From NCBI GenBank assembly GCA_015852425.1, contig JAAAIG010000018.1, positions 1 through 64,000 on the forward strand: 64,000 nt of DNA, given 5' to 3'. The translations under genes were made by a program, and so were the position numbers. The DNA is from Gryganskiella cystojenkinii. Taxonomy: Eukaryota > Mortierellomycota > Mortierellomycetes > Mortierellales > Mortierellaceae. Positions within the stretch are counted from its first letter, which is position 1. Every line of letters begins with the position of its first letter. Shown piece by piece: positions 9,146-44,283 of this stretch. The notes under the pieces were generated by a model, which saw only the letters and a program-made list of their open reading frames with translations, ran no database searches and had not been told where the DNA came from.

Positions 9146-12100
9146 TTACAGGTACAGGGACGATGCAAAGACAATGCCACGTTTGATACTTGTGCAGCCT
9201 GCCTTGAACTTGTCCTCGAGTTCAGTGTTGCCCATGATCCGAGATGCATTGCATAATTGCAGCATAAGCTCGTACATTGACCGCAACACCCGAACGATCT
9301 CTCCCTCAAAGGCCTCGGTCATCCCTAGAAGCGTCTCGAATGACGCGCCCTAAAAAATGCAACAACACATTCATGTTGACAACAAGAAAGGGAAAAAAAG
9401 GAATAGCATCAAACGGCACCCCACGTCAATCTCCAACACCAAAAAAAAAAGGCAAAAAGCAAAACAACCAGGCCAATCAAGAAACCATGCCACATGCTTT
9501 TGTGCATGGTGATGCCATAAACAGCCCTCTTAGACAGTCTTCGTTACCTTGGCCCAGGCAAACGCAACTTCCATCAGATCATGCTTGAACTTTTCCACGT
9601 ACTCCTTCTCATCCACATTCAACTTGCTCTCCTTCTCGACCCTCACAATACTCCGTGCCATCTCTTGCATCATCCTCAACGGTGCCGCAAGTTCCTCAGG
9701 TAAGATTGGGGGCATCATCGAGACCTTGGCCGAGAGGCAGAAACAACTCATTAACGCCACCATCTGCTCTACTGAGAGTGCGTTGAACGCATTACTGAAC
9801 AGCAGCTCTGTCAACAATAGCTCATCTCCACCCGTGTTCAGTTCACACGCGACTCTACCCTTTGCCTCGATGACGTCTGCATTCGTCGTAAATCCCAATC
9901 GACGTAGGACGCGTTTTCGATGCCTGAGTTCGTCCAACTGAGCGATAGCCTTGGCATCCGCGATCCGTCTCTTGAGATCCTTGATCTTTTGGCTCATTTT
10001 TGCCTTCTCGAGATACTGCCCGTAAACGACCCTTAGAATCTCTGGTGACGCTTGCGACAGTGCATGCTCCGTCATAGCTTGCTCTAGTACCTCTATCCGG
10101 CGTACAATCTGTTGGAACGACACATCCCTGATCCCCATATCCTCGATCGGATCCACAGCTGGCAGTCCATCCGGAAATTTTTTCTTGAGCTCCTGCAGAG
10201 ACCTGAACACGGACTGTCGAGACTCTGGTTGTCGAAGGTCCTTGGGTAGCATGATCCTGAGAGAGCCAATGCACTCAATACTCGAGAGAGGGACCGGGAT
10301 CATAGTGAAGTCTCCAACCTCACCTGGTGCAGCTGCCCTGGCATCTATGGCAAGCCCCTCAGCATCCTTGGTAAATGTTGAGCCCTTGGCGCAGTTGAGA
10401 AGGACATCTAGGACATACGTCGGTTCCAGATCACGAGTCGCCGCGGAGCCGAAACGAGACCTGACAATCTTACAGCTCAAGAGGACCCCCCATCCAAAAT
10501 CTTGATCGCCAATCTTAACCCAAACAGACCTTCCATGTTCCAGAAACGGTTTTGAGTACTTGATCTGGTGTGTGAAGGCGCGAAGCTCTTTTGACAACAA
10601 CGCCAACTGGACGCGGATATCGTGATATTTGGAGATATAGCCCTCGTTCTCGACGGCTATCCGGGCATACTCACCATTGAGCTGGGCGAGTTCCCTTTGC
10701 ATGACTGGGATGTTGATATTGTTTTGGAACTGGAAAAAACACCGCTCCAGCATATAGTCTGGACCCAGACCCTCGATGCGCATTAGGTTCAAGATCATCG
10801 AGTACGAGAGATGAAACGCCGAGTTGAGTGGATCTGTTGTGCCAAGGACCATCTCCTTGGCAATGGGAGGCTCCATCTTTTCGTCGAGCATCATGATCAC
10901 AATGCCTCGCTCGTCCAGACCACGTCGACCTGCACGCCCTGACATTTGGATATATTCGCCACCAGAGAGCCACCGCATGTTGTCTCCATCAAACTTCCGT
11001 ACACTCGTAAAGACTACCGTTTTGGCCGGCATGTTAACTCCAATCGAGAAAGTTTCCGTTGCAAACAAGACTTTGATCAATCCTTCCTGGAATAAGAGTT
11101 CGACGACTTCTTTGAGAATCGGTAACAGTCCCGCGTGATGGATCCCGACCCCGCGACGTAATAAGGGGCTGAGCCTTGCGATTTGTGGGAGGGCAAGATC
11201 CTCTTCCGAGAGTGAGCTGACCGCGTTCGTAAAGACTTCGTCAACCAATTTACTCTCGCTCTCGCTGTTGAACTTCATCTTTGTCGTCTCCAGTGCCAAC
11301 GCTTCACATTCGCGCTTGCTAAAACTGAAGACAATGACTGGATAGTAGTTCTTGACTTGAATCATCTTGATGATCTTGTAGATATCGGCTGGACCATCTA
11401 ATCGCATGATCCAGAAGGAGAGATTTAGTAAATAATGAGGAGGATCTCAGTCCAAGAGCTCGCTGTAAAGAAGACAATAGGAGTTAGTTACCGGTCGAAT
11501 TATCTTTGACGCCAGCGCCTTTCCCTTTGCCTCCTCCCCGGTCGGTTAAAATGTTATTGTTATTCTTCTTTTTAGACTTCTTTCCTTTGCCATCCTTCGA
11601 GTCATCAATAGTTCCAATAGCCTTTTGAAAGTTTTCCTCACGGAATTGACCCTTTTCATCAACGACCAGGTGAATACCCTCTGCGCCAGCTGGAAAAAGG
11701 TAGTGTTGAAGTGGTGTTGGTCGGAAGTTTGTGTAGACGATGTGGCAGGGTTGCTCCTTGATCTTGCAGATCCACTCGGCGAATTCCATAGCATTGGGGA
11801 TTGTTGCCGACAAGAAGACGTAGTGGCAAGAGGCCGGGAGTAAGATAATAGTCTCCTCCCAAACAACTCCTCGGGCTAATAGCAGATTTCAGACAATTCG
11901 AGTTAGTGTACGATTTTCCGTGATTATAAGTACTTGGGTTCCAAGAGGTCATTTTTTTGGGATTGCATACCAGTGTCGCGCATGTAGTGGATCTCGTCAA
12001 AGATGACCCAAGAGACCTCACGCATGATTTGCGAGCCATTGTAGAGCATCCCTCTCAAGATTTCGGTTGTCATAACAAGACAGGACGCACTCGGGTTGAT

Positions 12101-15371: not shown

Positions 15372-17575
15372 TTAACGACGACCACCACGGAATCCACCAC
15401 GTCCACCTCCACGACCACCACGGAATCCTCCGCCACCGCGTCCACCACCACCATAGCCACCACGGCCACCACCGTTACCGCCACGACGATCATCCTGACG
15501 CTGCTCAAGCTCGGGCAAGGTCTTGCAAACCTCCAACTTGATGTTATCGAGATCGACCCACTTGTTACCGGCCAGAGTGATCTGGTTCTTGTCATCGACA
15601 GCGAGCTTCTCCGAGACGACATCAAAGACAACACCGGTCATATCCTTGGTCATACGCATACCCTTGACCTCCTCATAACCCAACTTGGGGAAGTTACGGG
15701 TCAAGATGTTACGGACATAACCAGGGTGCTGGATCTCGTGGGACAAAGTGAAGACCATAGTCGTGAAACCCTCGGTCGCAGACATGAGCGAACGGGCCTG
15801 GACACCGGCACCGTATCCGGAAATCTGAGCCAAAGCGGCAGCAAGAGCCTCGGTCGCATCCCCGTTAAAGCTCTCGGCAATCATCGACTCGGCAATGGGA
15901 CGGAACATGGGGACAACGTTCTTGACGACCTTGGCAACAATATCAGCAGCATCCTGAGCGGTGGCGGCAATAATATCCTGAGGTTGAGGAGGACCGGCCT
16001 TGACCATCTCCATACCGGCGCGGCGTTGAATGTTCTGGATCATGTACTCCTCCTGGGCCTTGAAGAAGGTAACGCAAACACCCTTACGACCAGCACGACC
16101 GGTACGACCGGATCTGTGGACATAGGTCTCGACATCCTTGGGGGGTTGGCAGTTAATAACCAAATCGACCATGGGAATATCAATACCACGGGCCAAGACG
16201 TCCGTGCAAATAATGCACTTGACCTTGGCCTCACGGAAACCCTGAAGAGTGAGCTCACGCTGGGCCTGAGGGATATCTCCGTGAAGGACCTTGGCATCGG
16301 CTCTGAGCTTGTCAGTAAGAGCCAACTCATCAGCCTCAGCCTTGGTGTTGGCGAAAATAACAGTCAGACCACGGTTACCACCATAGACCGCCACGACATC
16401 TCCGATAACATCCTTGCGCGATTGCCAGGTTGAGGGGATAGCATAATGACGAATGTTCTCGTTGGTCTTGATACGCGAGTTACCGACGAGATCGACATTG
16501 ATGTACTTGGGGTCGAGGTACTTCTCAACAGTGCGCTTGATCCATTCAGGAGCAGTGGCGGAGAAGAGCAAAGTCTGGTGCTTGGGTGCGCTGGGTCCAC
16601 GGCTGGTCTTTTGGGTCTGGACGTGTTGAAGGACCTGTTCCATATCCTCAGCGAAACCGATATCCAACATCTGATCAGCCTCATCCAAACAGACAAAACG
16701 GATCGAATCCAGACGCAAGTTGCCACGGTTGATGTGATCCAAGCAACGACCAGGAGTTCCAATGACGACATCGACACCGGCACGGAGGGCTGAAGTCTGC
16801 TCGTGCATGGGAGTACCACCGTAGACGCAGATCGACTTCAGGTTGGGACCGATGCTGGTGAACTCGTTCGAGACCTGGATAGCCAAATCACGGGTGGGGG
16901 CTAAGAGACAGAGAAAAAACGGGAAGAAAACGTTGGTTAGCATCAGATGTTATTATTATTTTTGGTTCCTGAGCCCATTTTTAAGAAACACAAACAACAA
17001 ACAAAAAAAAACAAAAAAAATCAATCCAGCGCAAACTCACCAAGGACAAGAACACGGGGGGCACGGCCGCGCTCGGAAGAAGCGTTCTCCTTCAAGAGAA
17101 TCTCAACCATGGGCAAGGCAAAAGCCAAGGTCTTTCCGGTACCGGTTCTAGCACGTCCGAGGACATCGTTTCCGTTATAGATATAGTTGAAGGTCTCGGC
17201 CTGAATGGGGAAAAGAGCCTTGATACCACGGGTCGCCAAGGCGGCGACAGTGGGGGGAGAGATCTTGTAAGAGCTCAAACGCAAGTTCTCGGGGACCTCC
17301 TCCTCAGCCTCGGCACCGGCCTCGGGGGTCGTGTCGCGGGGGGTGGCGGCAGGAGTGACTTCCTCTTCGATGCGAGCCTTCTTGAAACCGGGCTTGACCT
17401 CGTCGTCAGAGTCGTCAGAGGAAGAAGACTTGCGAGACTTCTTTTCCTTCTTCTCCTTCTTTTCTTTCTTTTCCTTCTTTTCCTTCTTCTCCTTCTTTTC
17501 CTTCTTCTCCTTGACGTCCTTGACGACCTTGATGTCAGCGGTCTCGGCTGTTACTTTTGTCTCGAGGGAAGGCAT
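15372..17575 (-). CDS. DDX21: DDX21/Gu-type nucleolar DEAD-box RNA helicase with GUCT and RGG regions
   Basis: ATP-dependent RNA helicase of the nucleolar Gu family (rRNA processing in animals). Exons 17575-17041 and 16900-15372, 687 residues. A basic N-terminal Lys-Glu repeat (KEKKEKKEKK, about 22-48) and an acidic Ser/Asp stretch come first. The Q-motif region follows, then motif I ARTGTGKT (Lys 148), PTRDLA, GTPGR, DEAD in LDEADQML, SAT, and HRSGRTGRAG (motif VI). The linker and a GUCT domain lie at about 470-570 (MVFTLSHEIQHPGYVRN to GVVFDVV). The tail is about 45 residues of RGG/GGYGGGGRGG repeats. The GUCT-plus-RGG layout separates it from other DEAD-box proteins. The family is absent from budding yeast as far as I recall, which fits an early-diverging fungus. 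Confidence 0.92.
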
Positions 17576-22507: not shown

Positions 22508-24133
22508 ATGAACTCTCTCAGGGTCGCCGCTCTCCGTCACCAACAACAACCTGCTGCCTTGGCCAGGCACATGGTTCGTCCCTCGACTGCTGTTCGTCAC
22601 TATGCCACCGTTCGTAAAGAACACACGACCGCGTCCAGGACTGTCAACTTTGTCCTCGGTACCGGTATCGTCGTTGGAGGTCTCGTCGGTCTCTCTTATG
22701 GATTCGACTCGCGTGCCTCGATCCACAAGTACGCTCTTCTCCCCCTGATGCACTGGACCATGGATCCCGAGACCGCTCACAAGGTCGGCATCAAGTTCTT
22801 GAAGATGGGTCTTTCCCCCTGGGACACTCAATCAGACGATCCCAGTCTCGAGGTCAAGGTATGCAGGGAGATGAATTGACCGGATGATCATCAGTATTCG
22901 TAAGTGGCCTCAAAGGAGCATAACTGACAACGCTGGGGGTTTTTTGTGTGATTATTGTCGTGTTAGCTCTGGAACAAGACCTTCTCAAACCCCGTGGGTA
23001 TGGCTGCTGGATTCGACAAGCACGCCGAGGCCATTGATGGATTGTTTGATCTTGGATTCGGTTACGTCGAGATTGGAAGTGTCACCCCCGAGCCCCAGGT
23101 AAAGGAAATAATCAGGGACTGTAACACGTCGAGCAATCAGGAATTGTTCGTGTCTCAACCATAACCAGCGAATTGACACCCTTGTGCCTTATACTTTACT
23201 ATATTTATATTTTCCTTTTCCCATTAGCCCGGCAACCCTCAACCTCGCATGTTCCGTCTCCCCGAGGACAAGTGTGTAATCAACCGTTATGGATTCAACT
23301 CGGAGGGTCACAAGGTCGTCGAGTCCCGTCTCCGTCAGCGCATCAAGCGGTTCCTCTTCAAGCACGCCCGTGAGGATCAGGAACAGACTCTGGAGAAATT
23401 GAAGAACGGTACCGCTACCACAGAATCTCTGGTCGATCACTTGTCCACCAACCGTTCTTTGAGAGATGACAAGCTCTTGGCAGTCAACTTGGGCAAGAAC
23501 AAGGCCTCAACCCCCGAATCTGTGGATGATTATGTCATTGGTGTTGAACGTTTGGGACCCTATGCCGATGTTCTTGTTGTCAATGTCTCTTCGCCCAACA
23601 CTCCTGGATTGAGATCATTGCAGCGCAAGGGTATGTTGGAGGATCTTTTGAGACAGGTCATTCAGGCCCGCGACAAGTTGAAGACGTCGTACAAGCCCCC
23701 ATTGTTGGTCAAGATTGCGCCCGATCTGTCGGATGAGGAATTGGAGGATGTCTCGGAGGCAGCTTTGGCGACCAAGGTGGATGGAATCATCATCTCCAAC
23801 ACCACCATTTCCCGCCCAAGCTCGTTGATCAACAAGGAGAACGCCAAGGAGGTCGGAGGACTCTCAGGACCCGTCGTCAAGCCTTTGGCGTTGAGAGCTT
23901 TGCGTCAGGTTTACAAGCATACCGAAGGCAAGATCCCCTTGGTTGGATGCGGTGGTATCACTACTGGTGAGGATGCGCTCGAGTTTGGTCGTGCAGGTGC
24001 AAGCATGGTTCAGCTTTACAGCAGCATGGCCTATGAGGGACCCGGTATCGCACGTGCAGTCAAGGATGGTATCGTCAAGGGACTTAACGGTCGCAAGTGG
24101 ATGGATATCGTTGGCGAGGACGCCAGAAAGTAA
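22508..24133 (+). CDS. DHODH: Dihydroorotate dehydrogenase, class 2, mitochondrial
   Basis: Oxidises dihydroorotate to orotate in pyrimidine synthesis, passing electrons to ubiquinone. Exons 22508-22858, 22967-23098 and 23228-24133, 462 residues. An Arg/Gln-rich presequence ([20 protein letters not shown]) is followed by one TM anchor (about 45-63, [21 protein letters not shown]) and the helical quinone-tunnel segment. The FMN barrel shows [35 protein letters not shown], the class 2 catalytic serine region [38 protein letters not shown] and [11 protein letters not shown]. An extra segment of about 30 residues with Thr/Asn/Lys ([17 protein letters not shown]) lies in the barrel, as in several fungal enzymes. 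The N-terminal anchor and catalytic Ser exclude the cytosolic class 1A enzyme of budding yeast. Confidence 0.96.
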
Positions 24134-24466: not shown

Positions 24467-27400
24467 TTAGAATCCCAAGGCAGACATGATACCATAACCG
24501 ATCGTGACCACACAGATCGTAGCCAAGATTGAGAGAGGGACACCAGTCTTGAGGAAATCGATTGTGCGGAGGAAAGGCTGACCCATCTCGTCCTCTTGAG
24601 CGATCGCGTTCATGTTAGGGAAACCTGAAACTGGCAAACCCATGGCGGCCGAGCAGATGAGACCAGTGCCCATGACCAAGATACGAGGGTGAGGATCCGC
24701 AAACGACATACCGACTTGCTGAACAATGGGCAAGATAATGACCGCAGCGACAGTATGCGAAACAAACGTGGCAAAGACCAAGGTCAAGGCACTAAAGATG
24801 ATCAAGACCACCCACTGAGAAAGACCAGCGACCGCATCCTGGATATGATGCGCGATCGTGTCCAACAGACCTGAGGAATCGACGGCTTTACCGAGAGCGA
24901 TACCACCCATGGCCAACACGATGACAGTCCACAAAAAGTTGTTGAAATCCTCCTTGTTCAAGAGACCGGTACCAAAGAAGGCAATCAAGGGAATGATGGC
25001 AATCACGCCCATATCACCGAGCTGGGCTTGGAAAGAGTTTTCGATGCACCAAAGGATAATGGTCGCGACGGTGACACCGCAGATAAAGACCTGTTGGTAC
25101 GTGATAGGCTCCTTGGTCGCACGGATCGAGGGGATAGTGGGCGTCTCACGGTGGGGCTTCCAGAGAAGCATCAACCAAGCCCAGATGATCAAGTCAATGA
25201 CGATACACAGGGGGATCGCGACAGCGAACCAGTTACCCCAGGAGGGAGCAGGGGACATGTTCTGGATCGTGATAATGTTCTGGGGTGAGGAGATGGGCGA
25301 GGCCATACCACCAACGTTCGAGGCCAGGGCGATACCCATGATCAAGCAAGGACCGAAACTGGACTTGTGAGGAAGGGTACGAAGGATGGACTATTGAAAT
25401 GAAAATGTGATTGTGAGTTAAAATATTCTATTTGATCAAGCGAAACATCAGAGAATAAAATTCAAAAAACACATGCGCAGAGTCGACTTGTTTTCTTACC
25501 TGAATCAAAGAGAAGCAGAGGACGGGAGCGGCAACGTTACTGATAAACATGGAGGCAATGGTAGCGACAAACATGTTGGCAAGCAAGACCCACTTGGGGT
25601 CAGTACCGGCCTTGCTCAGAACAGTACTGGCAATGGCTTTGGCGATACCATACTTGGAAAGAGCCGATGCAATAGTAAAACCACCAAGCAACAACATGAT
25701 AGTAGGCGAGAACATGGCCGAGAAGACCAATTTGGTGGCAGCACTGGTTGTCAAGGTTTGTTTGGTCGTAGGATCACGCATGACCTGGCACCAGACACAC
25801 AACATGGGGACCAAAAGAGCCGTCGCGTACAAAGGGAAAACCTCGGTCGCCCACATAAAAGCGACCGTGATCAGGATGGCAAAGCAACGGTTCTGTTCCC
25901 GAGTATCAAAGATAGAGGCCGACATCAAGATGCCAAAGATCACACAGGCGACCAAACCGAGAAGGATATGACGGAACTGCGTCTTGGTGATTGCCGTAAC
26001 GGGATGACCAAACAACATCCAGGGCTCGCTCTCCTTGGGATCAACAGCACGAGCACCCTCAGCCTTGCGCTCCTGACCAACCATGTCTCTCCAGACAGTG
26101 TTACGCTCCCAGACAATGTACTCGCGCAGGTGGGAACGGAGCTCCTTGGCAGCGAGGGCCATGCTGCCGTTGGTGCAGGTCCTAGCATAAATTGCCTGCA
26201 ATCTCAAGATCTGAGCATTCAACTGTTGACGGGACTCGGCCTGGAAGGGGGCCGAAAGGTCCACGACCGTGGTCATGTAACGTTGCAAAGTCGTGCAACG
26301 GGCCAACTTGTCGTGCTTCTTGACAATCTTCTGGAAGCCGAGGTAGTTGAGAGCCACATACGACTTCAACTCGGACAAGAGCATGTAGGTATCGATGAGA
26401 CGACGACGCAAAAGGGCCTCGGTGGTAAGAGGTGCATAGACCGAGGGCTTTTGGTTAGGGTTCTCGGAACGACCGATGGTACCGTGACCGCTACTAGAGA
26501 CGATCTCTCGCATGGCGTTGAAGGAACGTCTGAGGTCAATTGAAGACTTGCGAGGGATCTGGTGGGATTGACCAGCAGCACCCTTGGCGTCAGCAGAGGA
26601 GGAGGCCCCTTGATGATCGTGCTCGGAAAAGTAAGGACCATCATCCATGGGGTGGATGGATCCAGCTTTCTTGGCCTTCATCTTCTTGTCTTTCCTCTCT
26701 TTCTTTTCCTCTTCGTCATCAGACTCGATCAGGCACTCACGTCTCCAGACAATCTCGGTCAAGTCACCGACCGAGCTCTGACGACCATGGGACTTAGGGT
26801 TGTACTCGCTACCATCGACATCCGAAAAGGCCACGGCGGTGCCGGGGACGGAGGCGGTTTCGTGCTTGTTGTGGCCCTGAACACTACCATCGCCGACGGT
26901 AGAACCGTTGACAGTCAGGGGACCGCCAGCGGCCGACTTCATGTCAATGATTGTGTCCTGATCGACCAAGCCATCTTGTGCCCAACCCATCTTCTCTTTC
27001 AACTGAGCCTGTTCAAGCTGCTTCATCTTTTTCTCGTCATCTAGGTTCATGGACATACGACGCTCCATCTCAATACCATCAGTTTGACCTTCCTTCCTCG
27101 TCTTGAGCTCTTCCAGTTGCCATTGACGATCGACGGCCTCCAACTCGGATGAGAGTTCACGCTCCTTGCGGATGTAGAAGGAAGTTATCTTGGCCAACTC
27201 CTTGGCGAGACCGTGCTCGAACGCAGCGCTCTCGGGTGGGAAGATATCGGAACCGTTGTGGAGCTGAGCTGCCTTCTTGGCCGCGGCGGCGACTTCGGCA
27301 TCGTTGGTATGACGGCCCTTCAATCCGAGGAAGCGACCGATTCTTGAGGGCTTCTCATCTGAGGAGGAGGACCCTTGTTCGAGATCGGTGGGACGGCCAT

Positions 27401-28285
27401 TGCCTTCGATGGTGGACTGGACCTGGTACTTTTCGATCGCATAGAGGGTCTTCTTAAGATTGGAGTAGGCAATGTACTCGCTGGCCCAGTCGGGAACTAT
27501 GAGACGAGGTTGAGAGGCAGGAGGAGAGGTAGAAATGTCAGCTACGCGTCTTGATTGCCGTGGGCTTCGGGAGGTAGGCGGAGAAAGAGAGTCACATTTA
27601 TGAATAGAATGGATGGTGTGAAGAGAAGATATAGAACAATGAGGCGCCATGGTTCAAGTACGAAAGGAATGAACAAAAAAGAAAAGAAAGATCACCACCA
27701 ATAGCATGGATTCACCAAAATGTACCTCCGCTGCTGGCCGTGACCAACAATGGCACCAACCGTCCCCAAGCGGAGGGCAATTATCGATCTGAACGAAAGG
27801 ACAAAGAGGGGAGAAAAGAAAGGGCGGGAGCGAAAAAAGCGGAATGAAGAAAAGAGGAGATATAAAAAAAAAAGCGGAGTTGTTTTGAATGAAGTGAGGA
27901 GGACGCCGGTTGGAGGAAGGGGTCTGATTGCGGCGGTGGTTTCCTTTTTCGGTGGTCGTGTGATGGTTACACAGACCGGACCATTTTTTTTTTTTTTTTT
28001 TTGTTATCGATGTGGAGCAGTGGAGTAAAGGTAGGTAGGCAGAGAAAGAGTGCTAAGAAAGGATGTAATGTGCTGAATGTCATTTTGCCGTCAGTATGGG
28101 GCAATTGTGCAATTGCCCCTTGAATACTAACGAATAGTGACATTTTGAAAGCGAAGGAGGAGAAACACAACAAGAGATCAATCGTGGATCGAGGGGAATA
28201 AAAAAAAATTACGGAGACCGAGATATGATGAAGGGGATCTTCACGTACCAGTGTTGAACTGCAGACTGTGGCTGAACTTGACCAT
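24467..28285 (-). CDS. PHO91: SPX-domain low-affinity phosphate transporter (PHO87/PHO90/PHO91 type)
   Basis: Predicted phosphate permease with an inositol-pyrophosphate-sensing SPX domain. Exons 28285-28249, 27496-25500 and 25390-24467, 985 residues. The first exon is only 37 nt and encodes MVKFSHSLQFNT; spliced across a 752-nt intron it joins VPDWASEYIAYSNLKK, restoring the canonical SPX start. An in-frame ATG at 27650 would give a false longer exon lacking it. Long Ser/Asp/Gly-rich inserts separate the SPX helices; the SPX core resumes at LLRRRLIDTYMLLSELKSYV and NYLGFQKIVKKHDK (Lys-rich phosphate-binding helix). From about residue 520 there are roughly 10-12 TM segments of the DASS/SLC13 anion transporter fold (LLLGGFTIASALSKYG, VLAMGGIALGKA, FVSHTVAAVIILPI). 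Which yeast paralogue it matches (plasma membrane Pho87/90 or vacuolar Pho91) cannot be settled here. Confidence 0.92.
27497..28248 (-). other. Long first intron of the SPX transporter gene
   Basis: 752 nt, far longer than most introns in this window (50-150 nt). Donor GTACGT, acceptor CTCATAG. It holds G/A-rich low-complexity sequence and a T-run at about 27985-28001. No nested gene or C/D snoRNA boxes were recognised. Confidence 0.75.
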
Positions 28286-35533: not shown

Positions 35534-38500
35534 ATGACGAATCCGAAGACGAGCTTGCTTCTGTCACCTCAAACCGGAGGGTCGCATTCCAGGACCCCCA
35601 GCACTGACTCGAGCGAGAGGAGGAAATCAATTTTCCGCAACATATTCCGATCTAAGTCTCCCGCGACTCTTGGTTATAACTCAGTTCAGGGAAACATCAA
35701 CGCGTCCAGATCATCGCCCAACATGTCCATCGCGTCTGCAAGCTCGGGCGTGTCAACTGGACAGGTAGCTCTCTCATCAGGAATTGCGTCCAATCTTGCC
35801 ACAGTCGCATCCACGACCAAGTTAAGAACCCCGTCGGTCGGTTCCACTTCCATTGGCATACCGGTCACGTCTACATCTACAGGACGCGGTCAGATCTCGC
35901 CCAGTCTGCCTATCAGTGCTCCAAAGAGAACGAGAACCACCATTTTGACCTCAAGATCCGATATTTTTCCAAAGAACGGCGTCACTAGAGTCAATGTCAA
36001 CATCCCTGCACCCAAGGTCGGGCACGACTTTGAAAGTACAGCCCAACTCACCATATGTATTGGTATTCTCAACAATGTCTTTCAGACGGCACCCGATTCC
36101 TCCTCTTCGTCGTCCTCTCGGTCGGCAGTATCCGCCGACGACCATCCTACTTTTGGTTCGCTCAGTGTATCACAGAAAGAATGGATCTTGGAGATGGAAA
36201 AAAATCAAATCGAAAGGCAGTACGTCCATCATATTATGGATCGAATGGTGAACCAGTTTGTCTCCAACGACTTGAAAGACTCTGAGTCCATGCGCGAGAT
36301 TGTCCTTCTGGGATCCGTTCTGAACGCTAAACCTTACAAGAAGCTTCTCGACTGCTTTCGTCATCGTTTGGACGGATCTACTCTCCTCGATGTTGATGAT
36401 CTTCTGGGCCTGGTGCAGTTGATCCAGGTAGCGCCAAAGGGCTACTTGGTGGCTGATGATTTAAACCTGATCCTTCTCCGCCTCAGGGATCGCGTCGAGC
36501 TTTCTTCGCAGCTCGAGAAGAATGTTCTGGCTCATTTTGTCCTTGTGATCGCCATTGTCCTCATCCTTCTAGTCGCCTGCCGTACCACTGGTCTCCGTCG
36601 TGAGAAGGAATACCAGCCGTTGCTCGAACTTCTCCTGGAACTGAGAGAAGACGACGACCCCTTTGTGAAATATCAAGCCGACTACGCCTGTCAGAGTTTA
36701 CTCCTGATCCCTGACGACGAGACCACTCGCCAAGAGTTCTTTCGCCACCTTTTTGGTCTGTCCAGCGGTCTCTTGAAAATGTCAGGTATTGCTCGTCTCG
36801 AGTTTAATGGGATTGCCGAAGGTTTACCTGACACAATCGACGGTGCGCGAGGAATTTTTGGTTTCTTAAAAAACAAGCTCGGACCAGGAGGTAGGGAGTC
36901 GTGGTTCTCAGCGATCCGAGAGGCAGAAGATCATGTCCGAAATGGCGATTTTTCCAGCCTGAAAGACTTGGTCTGTGATCCGCATCACTGTCAGGATTCC
37001 AGGTTTTTGTGGGGCATCACACAGCTGCTAGGCGAGATTGCAGCCGATCCATCTTGGGAGGTGGCCAGTCGAGAGCAGGCTGTCGAGTTCCTGGCTGAGC
37101 TCTTCCGGAGCAGCTTCAACTCCAAGCAAGACGACGACCAGGACATTTCGCGTTGGATCTTGACGGTACTTGACCATCTCTCCGACCTGTCAACCTCGAA
37201 CTCTTCTGATGGCGCCAACTCTGTGCTGACGAATCTCCAATCACCAATCAAAGCGAAGGCACAGTCGTTGTTTGACAGCTTGTCGCAGAGTAATGTCAAA
37301 GGTTTCAAGTACATCCATCCGTTGCGCATTAGTCTACCCCTCGCAGAATCATCCCTGCTACTGAAAAACATCAACGAGCACCCGAATCTGGACCACGCTA
37401 TCTACAAATTCCAGCATGAGAGACAGAGCGAATACAAAGCCCGGCCATCGATATTTATTCCGCCGTTGTCAAAAACGAGTCTGGTGGCTTCTAATGAAAA
37501 CTCTGTCGAGCTGCATACGCGTATCCAGGAATTTTTGAGAGGAGCGACCCTGGTAATGTTGATCTTGGGTGATTCTGGAGCAGGAAAATCGACGTCAAAC
37601 AGACACCTGGAGAACAAGCTTTGGGATGAGTACAAGCCAGAAGAGAGTCGCATCCCTTTGTTCATCAACTTGCCCGAGATCGATCGTCCTCAACATGATA
37701 TGATTGACAAGCAATTACGGATCTACAAGTTTTCCGCATCTCACATCAAAGAGCTGAACACCCACCGTCGGTTCCTGTTAATATGTGATGGTTACGACGA
37801 GGCTCAACTCAACGACAACCTCCACCGCACCAATTTTTTCGACAAGACAGGACGACAGGATGTCAAGATGATTGTCAGTTGCAGAAGTACGTTCATTGGT
37901 CAGAACCATAGCGACCTCTTCAGTCCTCAAACGCATGATCAATATCAAGCAAGCAAATCCGACCTGTACACTGAAGCCGTCATCATTCCGTTCTCTGAAG
38001 GCCAGATCGAGGACTACGTCTGTCAGTTTGTGCGAGACACAGAGGTACACAAACCGGCGGACGAAAGGCCTATCTGGAGTGCTGGAGACTACATGGACAA
38101 GCTACGGTCGATCCCCAAGTTCTTGGAACTAGTCAAGAACCCATTTCTTCTCTCGCTCTCACTCAGAACATTGCCCTGCGTTGTAAAGGGAGAAGCCAAT
38201 CTGACCAAAGTCAAGGTGACACGCCTGACTCTGTATGATTCCTTCATTGACCAATGGGCAGAGACGAACCGACTTCGATTGAGGCGGACTACTCTATCAG
38301 GCGAAATGAATACAGCCTTTGAGCTCCTTTTGAAATACGGCTTTGATGAGAGCGTCATTGATTTTTCTAAAAATCTTGCTGCCGCCATCTATCATCAGCA
38401 GAATGGAAACCCGGTGGTGGAGTACAGGCCAAGACGCAATCAAACAACATGGAAGTGCGATTTTTTTTATCCTGTTCCCGAGAAAACACTCCTCTTGGCG

Positions 38501-41044
38501 TCAAGTCCGATATCTCGTGTCCAAGATCAATATCGGTTCATACACCAGTCTTTATTAGAGTATTTTTACTCGCGATATGTGTTTGAGACAGGCACAGGCA
38601 ACGGCGCTGCATCTCAAGACCTCGAGGATATCTCCAGTCACCCACTGAGCAAGAGACACCTTGCCAAGGAGTCATCGATCCTTCAGTTCTTAGCCGAATA
38701 TGTTGAAACTCATCCTGTTTTCAAAGAACAATTGGGTCAGATCATTGAGCGATCCAAAACGGATGCTCAAGCTAGTCAAGCTGCTGCAAACGCCATCACG
38801 ATTTTGGTCCGCGCTGGGATTCAATTTCATGGAGCAGATCTGAAAGGCATCCGAATTCCAGGCGCCGATTTGAGTCATGGCCAGTTTGATTCTGTTCTGC
38901 TGCAAGGAGCAGACTTAAAAAACACCCTTCTTCGCAGTATTTGGATGCGCCAGGCTGATTTAAGCGATGCACAAATGGAAGGAGTTGAGTTTGGCGAGTG
39001 GCCTTATCTATGTGAGGACGATGAGATCTCTTGTAGTGGGTATTCTCCAGACGGGAAAGCTTATACTGTCGGCCTCTTTGATGGTACAATAAGTGTATAC
39101 AATACCTCAAATTGGTCAAAAACTTGTTCCTTGGAAGGACACAATAGCTCTGTTTCAAGTGTAATGCATTCGCCCAATGGACATCAGATCGCGTCAGGCA
39201 GTGAAGACAAGACTGTGCGACTCTGGGATGCACACACAGGTGCAGCCGGTCCTGTCCTGACTGGCCACACTAACCCTGTTACAAGTGTGGTGTATTCACC
39301 CAATGGCCATCAGATTGCGTCAGGCAGCTTGGACAGTACTGTGCGACTGTGGGATACACGGACGGGTGCATCTGGACCTGTCTTCACCGGCCACACCGGT
39401 TTTGTCACAAGTGTGGTGTATTCACCCAATGGACATCAGATTGCGTCAGGCAGCTTGGACAACACTCTGCGATTGTGGAATGCACAAACAGGCGCAGCTG
39501 GTCCTGTCTTAACTGGCCACACTGAGCCAATTGAAACTGTGGCTTATTCGCCCAGTGGACAACAGATCGCATCAGGCAGTAGAGACCACACTGTGCGACT
39601 GTGGAATGCACAAACAGGCGCAGCTGGTCCTGTTTTAACTGGCCACACCAGGTTTGTTACACGCGTGGTGTATTCACCCAATGGTCATCGGATCGCATCA
39701 GGCAGTAGGGACAACACTGTGCGACTATGGGATGCACAAACAGGCGCAGCTGGTCCTGTCTTAATTGGCCACACCGAGTCAGTTGAAACTGTGGCGTATT
39801 CGCCCGGTGGACAACAGATCGCGTCAGGCAGTATGGACAACACTGTGCGACTATGGAATGCACAAACAGGCGCAGCTGGTCCTGTCTTGACTGGCCACAA
39901 TGGCTATGTTGTAAGTGTTATGTATTCACCCTGTGGCCATCAGATCGCATCAGGCAGTAGGGACTACACTGTGCGACTGTGGAAGACGGAGACTGGCGCA
40001 GCTAGTGCTGTCTCAATTGGCCACACCGAGCCAGTTGAAGCTGTGGCGTATTCGCCCTGTGGACAACAGATCGCGTCAGGCAGTAGGGACAACACTGTGC
40101 GACTGTGGAATGCTCAAACAGGTGCAGCTGGTCCTGTATTGACTGGCCACACCGAGCCAGTTGAAACAGTGGCGTATTCGCCCGGCGGACAACAGATCGC
40201 GTCAGGCAGTAGAGACCACACTGTGCGACTCTGGAATTCACGGACAGGTGCAGCTGGTCCTATCTTGACTGGCCACACTAGCCCTGTTACAAGTGTGGTG
40301 TATTCACCCAATGACCATCAGATCGCGTCAGGCAGCTTGGACAACACTCTGCGACTATGGAATGCACATACAGGCGCCGGTCTTGTCTTAACTGGCCACA
40401 CCAGTTTAGTTACAAGTGTGGTGTATTCACCCAATGGACGTCAGATTGCGTCAGGCAGCTGGGACAGTACTGTGCGACTGTGGGATACACGGACGGGTGC
40501 AGCTGGTCCTGTCTTCACCGGCCACACCGGTTTTGTCACAAGTGTGGTGTATTCACCCAGTGGACATCATATCGCTACGACAGGCAGTAGTGATTTCACT
40601 GTGCGACTTTGGGATGCACAAACAGGCGCAGCTGGTCCTGTTTTAACTGGTCACACCAGGTTTGTGGTATGCGTGGTGTATTCACCCATTGGTCATCATA
40701 TCGCGTCAGGCGGCTGGGACAACACCGTGCGACTGTGGAATGCACATTCAGGTCAATGCGTAGCAATTATCAACAGTTTCAAGAGCGCCGTCGCTTGCAT
40801 TGCTTGGCAAGCAGACTCCAATGGCGCCTATTTTGTTACCGGATCTAGAGACAATTCTGTTCGTGTGTGGAACTTTAATGAAGACGACGATCAGCATCAA
40901 GTGCGCCTGCATTGGAGTACAACGCGAGATGGCCTCTTTCTATCAAACGCATCAATCCGGAACGTCCAAGGGTTGAGCAGAACAAATGCGCGGCTATTAC
41001 GGCAGCGCGGGACTGTGAGTGGCCAAGAATCGTCGATGAGCTAG
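35534..41044 (+). CDS. NLR-like STAND protein: helical N-terminus, NACHT-like NTPase, pentapeptide repeats, WD40 array
   Basis: Single exon, 1836 residues. Order: Ser/Thr-rich tail (1-150); helical ARM-like region (about 165-590) with a hydrophobic stretch at 335-350 (FVLVIAIVLILLVAC) and the segment DDDPFVKYQADYACQSLL, which resembles N-terminal domains common in Mortierella NLR-like proteins (recall, not search). The NTPase has P-loop GDSGAGKST (679-687), Walker B RFLLICDGYDEA (Asp 752) and sensor-like MIVSCRS, then a winged-helix-like region (FIHQSLLEYFYSRYVF). A short pentapeptide stretch (about 1096-1156; GADLKG, GADLSH, GADLKN, QADLSD) precedes about 15 WD40 blades (1162-1782). Domain logic matches fungal NWD proteins, which sense ligands through the propeller and oligomerise; some act in heterokaryon incompatibility. 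The ligand and output here are unknown; the N-terminal effector type is not identified. Confidence 0.92.
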   Translation: MTNPKTSLLLSPQTGGSHSRTPSTDSSERRKSIFRNIFRSKSPATLGYNSVQGNINASRSSPNMSIASASSGVSTGQVALSSGIASNLATVASTTKLRTPSVGSTSIGIPVTSTSTGRGQISPSLPISAPKRTRTTILTSRSDIFPKNGVTRVNVNIPAPKVGHDFESTAQLTICIGILNNVFQTAPDSSSSSSSRSAVSADDHPTFGSLSVSQKEWILEMEKNQIERQYVHHIMDRMVNQFVSNDLKDSESMREIVLLGSVLNAKPYKKLLDCFRHRLDGSTLLDVDDLLGLVQLIQVAPKGYLVADDLNLILLRLRDRVELSSQLEKNVLAHFVLVIAIVLILLVACRTTGLRREKEYQPLLELLLELREDDDPFVKYQADYACQSLLLIPDDETTRQEFFRHLFGLSSGLLKMSGIARLEFNGIAEGLPDTIDGARGIFGFLKNKLGPGGRESWFSAIREAEDHVRNGDFSSLKDLVCDPHHCQDSRFLWGITQLLGEIAADPSWEVASREQAVEFLAELFRSSFNSKQDDDQDISRWILTVLDHLSDLSTSNSSDGANSVLTNLQSPIKAKAQSLFDSLSQSNVKGFKYIHPLRISLPLAESSLLLKNINEHPNLDHAIYKFQHERQSEYKARPSIFIPPLSKTSLVASNENSVELHTRIQEFLRGATLVMLILGDSGAGKSTSNRHLENKLWDEYKPEESRIPLFINLPEIDRPQHDMIDKQLRIYKFSASHIKELNTHRRFLLICDGYDEAQLNDNLHRTNFFDKTGRQDVKMIVSCRSTFIGQNHSDLFSPQTHDQYQASKSDLYTEAVIIPFSEGQIEDYVCQFVRDTEVHKPADERPIWSAGDYMDKLRSIPKFLELVKNPFLLSLSLRTLPCVVKGEANLTKVKVTRLTLYDSFIDQWAETNRLRLRRTTLSGEMNTAFELLLKYGFDESVIDFSKNLAAAIYHQQNGNPVVEYRPRRNQTTWKCDFFYPVPEKTLLLASSPISRVQDQYRFIHQSLLEYFYSRYVFETGTGNGAASQDLEDISSHPLSKRHLAKESSILQFLAEYVETHPVFKEQLGQIIERSKTDAQASQAAANAITILVRAGIQFHGADLKGIRIPGADLSHGQFDSVLLQGADLKNTLLRSIWMRQADLSDAQMEGVEFGEWPYLCEDDEISCSGYSPDGKAYTVGLFDGTISVYNTSNWSKTCSLEGHNSSVSSVMHSPNGHQIASGSEDKTVRLWDAHTGAAGPVLTGHTNPVTSVVYSPNGHQIASGSLDSTVRLWDTRTGASGPVFTGHTGFVTSVVYSPNGHQIASGSLDNTLRLWNAQTGAAGPVLTGHTEPIETVAYSPSGQQIASGSRDHTVRLWNAQTGAAGPVLTGHTRFVTRVVYSPNGHRIASGSRDNTVRLWDAQTGAAGPVLIGHTESVETVAYSPGGQQIASGSMDNTVRLWNAQTGAAGPVLTGHNGYVVSVMYSPCGHQIASGSRDYTVRLWKTETGAASAVSIGHTEPVEAVAYSPCGQQIASGSRDNTVRLWNAQTGAAGPVLTGHTEPVETVAYSPGGQQIASGSRDHTVRLWNSRTGAAGPILTGHTSPVTSVVYSPNDHQIASGSLDNTLRLWNAHTGAGLVLTGHTSLVTSVVYSPNGRQIASGSWDSTVRLWDTRTGAAGPVFTGHTGFVTSVVYSPSGHHIATTGSSDFTVRLWDAQTGAAGPVLTGHTRFVVCVVYSPIGHHIASGGWDNTVRLWNAHSGQCVAIINSFKSAVACIAWQADSNGAYFVTGSRDNSVRVWNFNEDDDQHQVRLHWSTTRDGLFLSNASIRNVQGLSRTNARLLRQRGTVSGQESSMS
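39143..40780 (+). repeat. Thirteen near-identical 126-bp WD40-coding repeats
   Basis: Each unit encodes 42 residues ending in TGH, with core SPNGHQIASGS and TVRLWDAQTGAAGPVL. One unit (R10) is one codon short and one (R12) one codon long. A degenerate blade precedes the array and another follows it. DNA identity between units is high enough that whole stretches match exactly (for instance R2-R3 against R11-R12), indicating recent homogenisation. Differences concentrate at the residues just after TGH and around SGSxDxT. Confidence 0.93.
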
Positions 41045-42161: not shown

Positions 42162-44283
42162 ATGAGTACTCAGGCTAATGCAAAGGTAAAAAAAGATAAA
42201 ACACTAACACAGGTGCAAGGGTAAAGAAGACAAGGACTACTTTTACTTTTTCGAGAGACAGTTCAGGAAGGCTAACTGGATCTTATTTCTTCTCATCCCT
42301 GTTGCTGGGTCATATCGCGAATTAGCCCTCCCTTCAAGGTGTCAAGATCAGAACTCGCAAGGTAAGGAGACAGACGGCGAAACAGAGTCGTATGAACATG
42401 CTAGCAGAAGCCTCAAACAGGAGGACCTTTCATGCTGCAAAATCATGGCGAACTCACATTTGTTTGTTCTCGTCGTGTTGTTCTGCAACTCTACAATTCG
42501 AATCATCTTCATCATCATAGGGCGTCCAAAAAGCCACAGCCAAGTTCGAACCCACTGGTAAGTTTGTAAAACACCAACAAAAAAGCCCTGTTTTCGCTGG
42601 CAAAAGCAACAACACCCATTCGTGCAAACACCGAAAAAGGGGGGTGCATGTTATTCTTCTCGGCAACTAACATCAGCTTTGTGATCCGTTGTCTTACTCT
42701 TGCTCTCTCTCTCCCGCTTTACTATTTCATTAGTTTTCCGTGACGCTTTCATAGCTGTCCTTTCTTCAGCCACTCCTGGCAACCTTGACGAAATCTCTGC
42801 AAAGCTGGATGCCGCTGGCAACACTCTGGAATATAGACGCTACGCCGAAACCCTTTTCGAAATCTTAATCGTTGGCCGCCTTCTTGGTAAGTAATTGGCA
42901 AAGGAAAGAAAATAAAGTCGACCGTAGCACTGTGTGGCTCTGTCCAAAAGGAGACCATGGATCAGTGATTTTTTTTTTGTCGGCGTTTCAGGAGCATTAT
43001 TGGTCCATGCATATCTCGAAGGCACGAAATCTAATCTTAAATTTTGCTGTCACTTTTTGGTTATCTGAAGCTCCCGGCGGTACTTTTCTCGAGGACGGAA
43101 CTCCAGCCAGTCCCTTCAGCATCTTTGAAGCCCAGGATAATCTTGCCAGTATCAAAAAGCATGTCGAGGTTTTCAACAAGCTCATGCGTCGCTACAAGTA
43201 CTTGCAGCGCGGATTCGAAGATACCCTGATGAACCTGTTGCAACACATCAACAAATTCTCGACTGAAGATACCAACAAATTGGCTCTTGCTACGGGTCTG
43301 TTTTGCTCCGCGGGTCTTGCGACCCTGAGTGTTCTCTCAGTCCTCTTCAAGGAACATTTGGTTAAGGAGGGTATGTTGAACTCATAATCTAAATCTGCCT
43401 TGATCAGGAAAAAGAAATATCATTAATCTTTCTGCTCTTTCTAATCTGCATCTTTTTTTTGTTGGGTCTTTCAGGGTTGTCCCTTCAATTTGTCACGACC
43501 GTATTCAAGACTTGTCTCTTGGACCAGACTGTGGACCAGTTTGGATTGAATCTCAGCAAGGCCGGCATGAGCGAGCGTCTCCTGGATTTCTTCCCACCCA
43601 ACAAGCGCGACGAGGAGAGTTTTGCCCGCCACTTCGAGGCCGAGGATATGAAGCAACTGGTTGCCTTCCAGAGCAAGAAACAGCTCTATATGCGCAAGGA
43701 GAATGTGGTCGAGCAGGTCAAGTCTCTTTTGGAAGAGGGCAAGGTCACTGAGGTACCGATCAGGAGAGATTTTTTATGTTATGAGGTCCTTCACCATTGG
43801 GTGCGCCATATTAATTTGTCGACCTACCCTCTTTTGCAATCTTAGTGCATCACCTACCTCAAGACAGAGAGCAAGGACATTGGTCTGACCGAGGCTGAGT
43901 TTATCCCCTTGGTCTGGACGGGCATGATGGCTTCGGTGGATTGGGGTACACGCGTGGACCAGATCGATAACCAGATCTTGAAGCAGGTTCAACAATACAG
44001 CAAGCTGTTGGCGGCGTTCTGTACTAACCCCAAGACAGAGATCGCGTTGATGCAGACAATGCAGGTCAACTTTTACGAAGACGCTCGGTTCCTCAAACAA
44101 TTCCGAGCCGTGACCCAGTTGTTGTACAAGAACGATGTGTTGTCGGAGAGCGCGATCCTGTACTGGGCCGAGAAGGGAGCCAAGACTCAGGGCCGAACAG
44201 TGCTCATGAAGCAGATGGAGCCTTTTATTCATTGGCTCAAGAACGCGAGTGACGAGGAAGACTCTGAGGAGGATGAGGAGTAA
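42162..44283 (+). CDS. BZW1: BZW/5MP (eIF5-mimic protein, W2 domain), 7 exons
   Basis: Translation regulator that mimics the eIF5 C-terminal domain, binding eIF2/eIF3 and raising start-codon stringency. Exons 42162-42185, 42326-42361, 42521-42557, 42734-42886, 43071-43370, 43475-43752 and 43846-44283, 421 residues (human BZW1 419). The first three exons are only 24, 36 and 37 nt and encode MSTQANAK, PSLQGVKIRTRK and GVQKATAKFEPT; joined, they mirror the animal N-terminus (KPTLSGQRFKTRKR...RFDP). The body matches KLDAAGNTLEYRRYAETLFE, VFNKLMRRYKYLQRGFED and KLALATGLF. The C-terminal W2 domain ends ILYWAEKGAKTQGRTVL...EPFIHWLKNA plus an acidic tail. The family is missing from budding yeast as far as I recall. 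Confidence 0.93.

Follow-up and report, generated by a model that had tools for sequence, protein, structure and literature searches.

Which kind of receptor is encoded by the long open frame at 35534-41044 on contig JAAAIG010000018.1 of the soil fungus Gryganskiella cystojenkinii (assembly GCA_015852425.1), and how might it sense and signal? We analysed this gene (the focal gene) within the window, i.e. the whole stretch of 64,000 nucleotides that covers positions 1 to 64,000 of a contig of 115,942 bases, inside which the gene lies. Its product is probably an intracellular receptor of the type of the signal transduction ATPases with numerous domains and the NOD-like receptors (STAND/NLR), which belongs to the ARM_5 family of the Mortierellomycetes, forms part of a large paralogous repertoire and carries a diversified sensor of two propellers. 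Four things that were observed directly carry this reading: the anatomy of the protein, the size of the family, the pattern of variability and two mosaic paralogues. The features of the gene, each with its basis between brackets, are:

35534..41044, + strand: focal gene, whole single open frame, 1836 aa (frame translation; paralogue starts alike)
35618..35662, + strand: basic-hydrophobic motif near the N-terminus, RRKSIFRNIFRSKSP, residues 29-43 (recurrence in the family)
35951..37528, + strand: ARM_5 solenoid domain, all-helical, residues 140-665, with Pfam stretches at 36200-36841 and 36881-37207 (Pfam, AlphaFold2 model, structure matches)
36524..36574, + strand: hydrophobic helix within the ARM domain, subclade-specific, residues 331-347 (hydropathy comparison)
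37553..38038, + strand: NACHT NTPase core, residues 674-835 (Pfam)
37568..37594, + strand: Walker A, GDSGAGKST (sequence)
37784..37801, + strand: Walker B, CDGYDE (sequence)
38534..38572, + strand: helical third domain motif RFIHQSLLEYFYS, near the NAIP-like consensus (motif comparison)
38822..38971, + strand: pentapeptide hinge; the apparent parent switch of paralogue C213 lies inside the corresponding stretch, that of C390 at or just before it (Pfam, mosaic comparison)
38996..39994, + strand: first propeller, 8 blades, residues 1155-1487 (structure model)
39137..40774, + strand: 13 WD40 blades, semi-homogenised (tandem repeat and blade analysis)
40016..40882, + strand: second propeller, 7 blades, residues 1495-1783 (structure model)
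40775..41041, + strand: last blade, divergent, and C-terminal tail (blade analysis)

The gene is one uninterrupted frame of 1836 codons, the ATG of which is backed by similar starts in the nearest paralogues (MTNSNT in C754 and MTNPKT in C760). Outside the WD40 array, the ratio of non-synonymous to synonymous differences per site (pN/pS) relative to C754 is 0.33 (uncorrected); the gene is real and intact, and under purifying selection in that part. An initial annotation, made from the sequence alone, had read the gene as coding for an NLR/STAND protein of an early-diverging fungus, whose N-terminus is helical and ARM-like, whose NACHT has both Walker motifs (A and B) intact and which continues with a pentapeptide stretch and about 15 WD40 blades, and in all these respects it was borne out by the frame, the Pfam matches and the structure model. 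The NACHT (PF05729) reaches 35.6 bits against a cut-off of 26.7 and the pentapeptide repeats (PF00805) 25.6 against 20.2, Pfam places the domains in the order NACHT, pentapeptide, WD40, and a P-loop NTPase with Walker A and B is followed by C-terminal superstructure-forming repeats, the combination by which STAND/NLR proteins are recognised. Upstream of the NACHT, ARM_5 (PF23948) is matched from residues 223-436 onward with an E-value of 1.7e-35. The PDB sequence search with the NACHT part (E up to 1) gave no match, and the one with the ARM part gave a single match that was judged to be due to chance.

How large is the family, and where does it come from? The host genome (35 Mb in 1050 contigs) contains 60 NACHT and 77 ARM_5 profile matches, the latter amounting to about 64 loci after second stretches of one gene had been merged by hand, whereas ARM_5 was found in none of 14 control genomes (NACHT in 11 of them, over the cut-off in 3). 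Measured over residues 222-1156, identity is highest with the paralogues C754 (79%), C760 (78%), C25 (75%), C953 (74%), C690 (68%), C352 (63%) and C693 (61%), and shorter matches were obtained with C393, C213 and C658 (79-80%), C497 (65%) and C218 (61%), after which identity drops to 43%. Protein searches with residues 160-660 and 655-1156 recovered 3 and 1564 proteins, respectively; all named organisms among the best 120 of the 1564 belong to Mortierella, Linnemannia, Podila, Dissophora, Entomortierella, Modicella, Haplosporangium or Gryganskiella, and within these best 120 the NACHT part is up to 61% identical to a protein of Mortierella alpina. All eight are genera of the Mortierellaceae. 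The sensor type varies within the family, since of two further ARM_5 proteins one (P0002) ends in what we take, from the Pfam accessions, to be leucine-rich repeats and the other (P0035) in what are presumably ankyrin repeats. The focal protein is thus of a kind already known, the ARM_5-NACHT-pentapeptide-WD40 family of the Mortierellomycetes: a long helical N-terminal NLR domain common to Pezizomycotina and Mortierellomycetes is described by Wojciechowski et al. (2022, PMC9815663), NACHT-PPR-WD40 NLRs are reported for Mortierellomycota, with homologues in Mycoavidus, by Ciach et al. (2024, PMC11291939), and PMC7928374 reports that 6 genomes and 14 proteomes of Mucoromycotina yielded no NLRs.

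The Mycoavidus homologues, about 45-50% identical (PMC11291939) and with homologous helical domains (PMC9815663), would fit a rival explanation, in which the fungi obtained the family from endobacteria, or have it in common with them, and it works in the symbiosis, as a sensor of the endosymbiont or as an exchanged gene. The many diverged loci of the host genome suggest a long residence in fungi, and two scans of GTDB, with the ARM and the NACHT alignments and two short patterns each, found no relative, a result that does not contradict the published homologues. We consider this explanation unlikely.

Is the sensor of such a receptor diversified? The array contains a 126-bp tandem repeat of 12.7 copies (39149-40746) and counts 15 blades, 13 'GH' blades with a divergent blade on either side, in agreement with a distance of 15.2 units of 42 residues between EWP and VRLHW. 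The initial annotation had spoken of a homogenised propeller: an array of similar blades is indeed present, but the model divides it over two propellers (8 + 7 blades) and homogenisation is only moderate, since 11 of the 13 blades have a length of exactly 42 residues and share 69% identity on average (50-90% over 55 pairs), less than the 85% from which Dyrka et al. (PMC4986451) speak of high internal conservation. The differences are concentrated: with the G of GH numbered as column 1, the 11 full blades are 76% identical outside, and 20% inside, columns 4, 5, 7, 23 and 25. The same columns emerged from two larger sets. Within the host genome (215 blades in 20 arrays, from 20 of 49 matched loci, C25 being read from L039 rather than L045, and blades that contained X or a stop or were of unusual length being discarded), non-synonymous differences per site rank the columns as 5, 23, 7, 4, 25 and then 36; entropy within 514 distinct blades from 60 of 123 proteins of other species ranks them as 5, 23, 7, 4, 25 and then 42.

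In our register, the four strongest Podospora positions, which lie on either side of the conserved V and D in each blade, are columns 5, 7, 23 and 25, and the wider HET-D/HET-E set of seven corresponds to columns 3, 4, 5, 7, 23, 25 and 32. The five most variable columns of the family all fall among these seven, in the host genome as well as in the other species, as do the top four columns of the focal gene alone, so the likeness to HET-E/HNWD arrays that had been proposed at the outset extends to the variable columns themselves. In 13 of the 42 columns the blade pattern prescribes the class of residue, which leaves 29 columns that can be ranked; for these the chance of finding the top five all among the seven is about 1.8e-4 (21/118755), versus 2.5e-5 for 42 columns. 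In 39 close disjoint pairs, pN/pS is 1.08 at the four positions (bootstrap 0.82-1.38) and 0.27 outside the seven, and within genes it ranges from 1.04 to 1.48 (uncorrected) at the hypervariable positions, which indicates that constraint is lifted at the variable columns. A claim of positive selection was given up after the close-pair count. Among the matches listed for the open-access literature we met no report on WD40 hypervariability in Mortierella, and such signs of sensor diversification were not met in print there for the lineage.

The arrays also turn over. A blade of the focal gene resembles the blade of equal number in a paralogue little or no more than it resembles the other blades there, and positional orthology of the arrays accordingly found little support: at offset 0 the diagonal and off-diagonal identities are equal for C25 (0.737) and the gap is 0.015-0.06 for C127b, C754, C658 and C760, the largest being that of C760, with 6 blades only. 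For 109 of the 215 blades the nearest neighbour lies within their own array. The mean synonymous distance is lower for the blades than for the NACHT in C352 (0.51 vs 0.70), C693 (0.53 vs 0.71) and C497 (0.49 vs 0.64), as would be expected if repeats are exchanged; this comparison was made without C690, for which just 21 codons could be aligned. The array of C690 (L052) contains a run of unread bases and those of C754 and C760 stop at contig ends, so that the repeat numbers of several paralogues are unreadable from the assembly; the five complete arrays hold 14-16 blades.

Among the 15 paralogues tried, 12 were usable on both sides of the hinge and two of these are mosaics. C213 (L054 / L007) is up to codon 480 closest to C198, C754, C25 and C658 (76-92%, vs 61-74% to C497, C352 and C693) and thereafter to C497, C352 and C693 (66-86%, vs 53-77% to the former four), and thus reads as a clear mosaic that combines the NACHT of one clade with the WD40 array of another, with the junction inside the pentapeptide stretch. 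C390 (L062) appears as a second mosaic, with the switch at or just before the hinge: its NACHT side is nearer to C683 (67-82% identity, vs 48-70% with C437), whereas the sequence that starts with the pentapeptides is nearer to C437 (79 and 75%, vs 69 and 68% with C683). Chimeras of the assembly might account for either, and this caveat is strongest for C213 because its frame starts at a contig end. Repeat exchange as in HNWD was found at the level of the family only, in C213 and C390, and no mosaic was shown for the focal gene itself. A further 16 paralogues, more distant ones, show a separate match that begins at about residue 1033 and takes in the hinge, presumably because an intron precedes it; this stretch is better conserved, at 53-63% identity, than the NACHT part ahead of it (39-46%).

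The hypervariable columns shared with HET-D/E, a similar turnover of arrays and a double propeller like the one proposed for HET-E (PMC12222747) would also fit an allorecognition receptor in the narrow HET-D/HET-E sense, which would recognise a self protein that is polymorphic once hyphae have fused, and bring about the death of the fusion cell. The HET domain is absent from the Pfam results, however, the blades are 69% rather than more than 80% identical, a repertoire of dozens of genes fits xenorecognition equally well, and no report on incompatibility in Mortierella was met among the open-access matches listed; so narrow a function is distinctly improbable.

What, then, could the N-terminus do? 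When its first 658 aa were compared with Pfam at E-values up to 1, just ARM_5 and a sub-threshold HEAT match (0.1) were retrieved, with neither HET nor patatin, in line with what had been noted before. The accompanying statement that the output domain is not described for this lineage was wrong, because the N-terminal domain is ARM_5, which was published as a helical NLR domain of the Mortierellomycetes (PMC9815663). The model of residues 140-665 (526 aa, from 25 sequences) is all helical, with a predicted local distance difference score (pLDDT) of 73 and a predicted template modelling score (pTM) of 0.74, and its structure matches mostly span about 13-325 or 316-455, i.e. two alpha-solenoid stretches, so that the focal protein has the helical N-terminal domain of more than 500 aa with two such stretches that characterises the ARM_5 family. 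A known effector fold was sought with Foldseek, which gave 0 matches at E ≤ 0.001 and as best matches, at about 3e-3, the engineered protein 4rv1 and the ARM domain of SARM1; a second structure search (VIA) retrieved many unrelated HEAT/ARM proteins. A motif akin to RRKSIFRNIFRSKSP was found in all 6 paralogue starts examined, and a looser pattern of this type, chosen post hoc after inspection of the 27 starts (the first, strict one matched 5), occurs in 20 of 27 N-termini from other species (2 probably false), vs a mean of 1.5 and a maximum of 5 in shuffled sequences. A linker rich in Ser and Thr comes after the motif, which might serve as an anchor to a membrane or to a partner.

Within the ARM domain, residues 331-347 have a mean hydropathy of 3.34, the level of a transmembrane segment. 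In the comparison (23 rows, 5 of which gave no anchor) the site scores 2.1-3.5 in the 11 genes of the subclade, 10 of them placed by their identity over residues 222-1156 and C782 by the hydrophobic stretch itself, and 1.0-1.6 in four other paralogues. Elsewhere the median is 1.03 for the 83 other-species proteins that were scored and, for 27 distant paralogues, 1.19 with a maximum of 1.91. A retained intron was considered for this odd stretch and dropped, as it is in frame and common to paralogues. The helix may be membrane-active or part of a buried core. If membrane-active, it would be released and insert into membranes after oligomerisation, an output that we hold to be very unlikely: AlphaFold2 sets the helix inside the solenoid, for which reason it may be mere buried core, and the lowest subclade value (C352, 2.14) overlaps those of three intermediate paralogues (2.10-2.31) and is close to the maximum of the other species (2.12).

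Reading the focal protein as a receptor of innate recognition seems reasonable from these sequences, and the mechanism that we infer, from ligand binding through the ATP switch and oligomerisation to output, would be as follows. The sensor would consist of the two propellers of 8 + 7 blades, the blades of which are kept alike while some five columns in each may vary freely, on what is the partner-binding face in HET-E. By analogy with NLRs and Apaf-1, the double propeller would lock the NACHT in the closed state, and a partner that binds across the variable top faces would free the switch; ATP-bound molecules would oligomerise and the ARM domains would cluster and might then signal defence or cell death. 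The arrays would turn over within genes, and the exchange that two paralogues appear to have undergone at or beside the hinge would join a new sensor to a working NACHT switch.

Several observations weigh against this interpretation. Column 25 comes no higher than 11th when the focal gene is taken by itself, and the number of the four positions found in the top four is 0 in C133, 1 in C690 and 2 in C683, C25 and C213. The close-pair ratio at these positions is compatible with neutrality, and positive selection is not demonstrated by it; variable top-face columns may, moreover, be common to many WD40 proteins. The synonymous distance of the blades exceeds that of the NACHT for C754, C760 and C213 and is about equal to it for C25 and C658. 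Finally, the ARM domain resembles generic ARM/HEAT scaffolds only, and an effector role is therefore not seen in it; the initial annotation had listed a plain structural fold of the N-terminus as one half of what would speak against its proposal, and this half was found. That the protein is a large STAND scaffold without an immune role, with an ARM domain that provides a scaffold or an autoinhibitory platform, is nevertheless highly improbable, as the hypervariability and exchange of the sensor are hard to fit with a housekeeping scaffold.

Beyond the preferred reading of an innate receptor, we offer as a tentative and rather doubtful extension that the Mortierellomycetes run an HNWD-like diversification independently on another chassis, in which double propellers, each blade free to vary at five surface columns, would move as modules from one NACHT switch to another via a conserved pentapeptide joint, and a membrane-active helix gained by ARM_5 would provide the output in one subclade. 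If the pattern holds in populations, distant fungi would diversify their innate sensors at the same blade positions with unrelated output domains, and the question of what dozens of receptors see (mycoviruses, endobacteria, other hyphae) would become directly testable. From the exchange at the hinge one would also expect a propeller that is moved to another switch to remain functional. The focal gene is a good, already recognised candidate for fungal innate recognition.

The surroundings of the gene are ordinary. A Pfam scan of 10 other frames of the window gave matches in 5, all of them to ordinary genes:

9533-11407, - strand: Mtr4-like helicase (Pfam match)
15375-16943, - strand: DEAD-box helicase with GUCT (Pfam match)
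23249-24130, + strand: dihydroorotate dehydrogenase (Pfam match)
25431-27650, - strand: SPX-domain transporter, left of the focal gene (Pfam match)
42872-43384, + strand: 5MP1-like HEAT protein gene, right of the focal gene (Pfam match)

How does the focal protein compare with known systems? Apaf-1 (entries 3sfz and 3shf) likewise has a STAND NTPase followed by two WD40 propellers, of 7 + 8 = 15 blades, but it carries NB-ARC instead of NACHT and CARD instead of ARM_5, its ring sizes are in reversed order and its blades are not homogenised. The motif FIHQSLLEYFYS is near the consensus FhHxxhQE[YF]hxA of the N-NACHT NLRs, from which it differs by L for Q and S for A; PMC12258605 reports 26 such NLRs in Entomortierella parvispora and ties the fungal N-NACHT to HEAT repeats, whereas the focal protein continues with WD40. 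With the HNWD proteins HET-D, HET-E and HET-R of Podospora anserina it shares NACHT and WD40, the proposed double propeller, the hypervariable blade columns and, through its paralogues, the exchange of repeats; it differs in having ARM_5 in place of the HET domain, in the identity of its blades (69% on average vs >80-85%), in their number (13 like blades vs 10-12 in active HET-E alleles) and in its third-domain motif (near NAIP-like, that of most HET-domain NLRs of Sordariales being TLP1-like). The closest likeness is to the ARM_5-NACHT-pentapeptide-WD40 NLRs of the Mortierellaceae, with which all four domains are shared in identical order (PMC9815663 for the helical domain, PMC11291939 for NACHT-PPR-WD40), and from which the focal subclade differs by a hydrophobic ARM helix of its own and the focal gene by its own sensor array.
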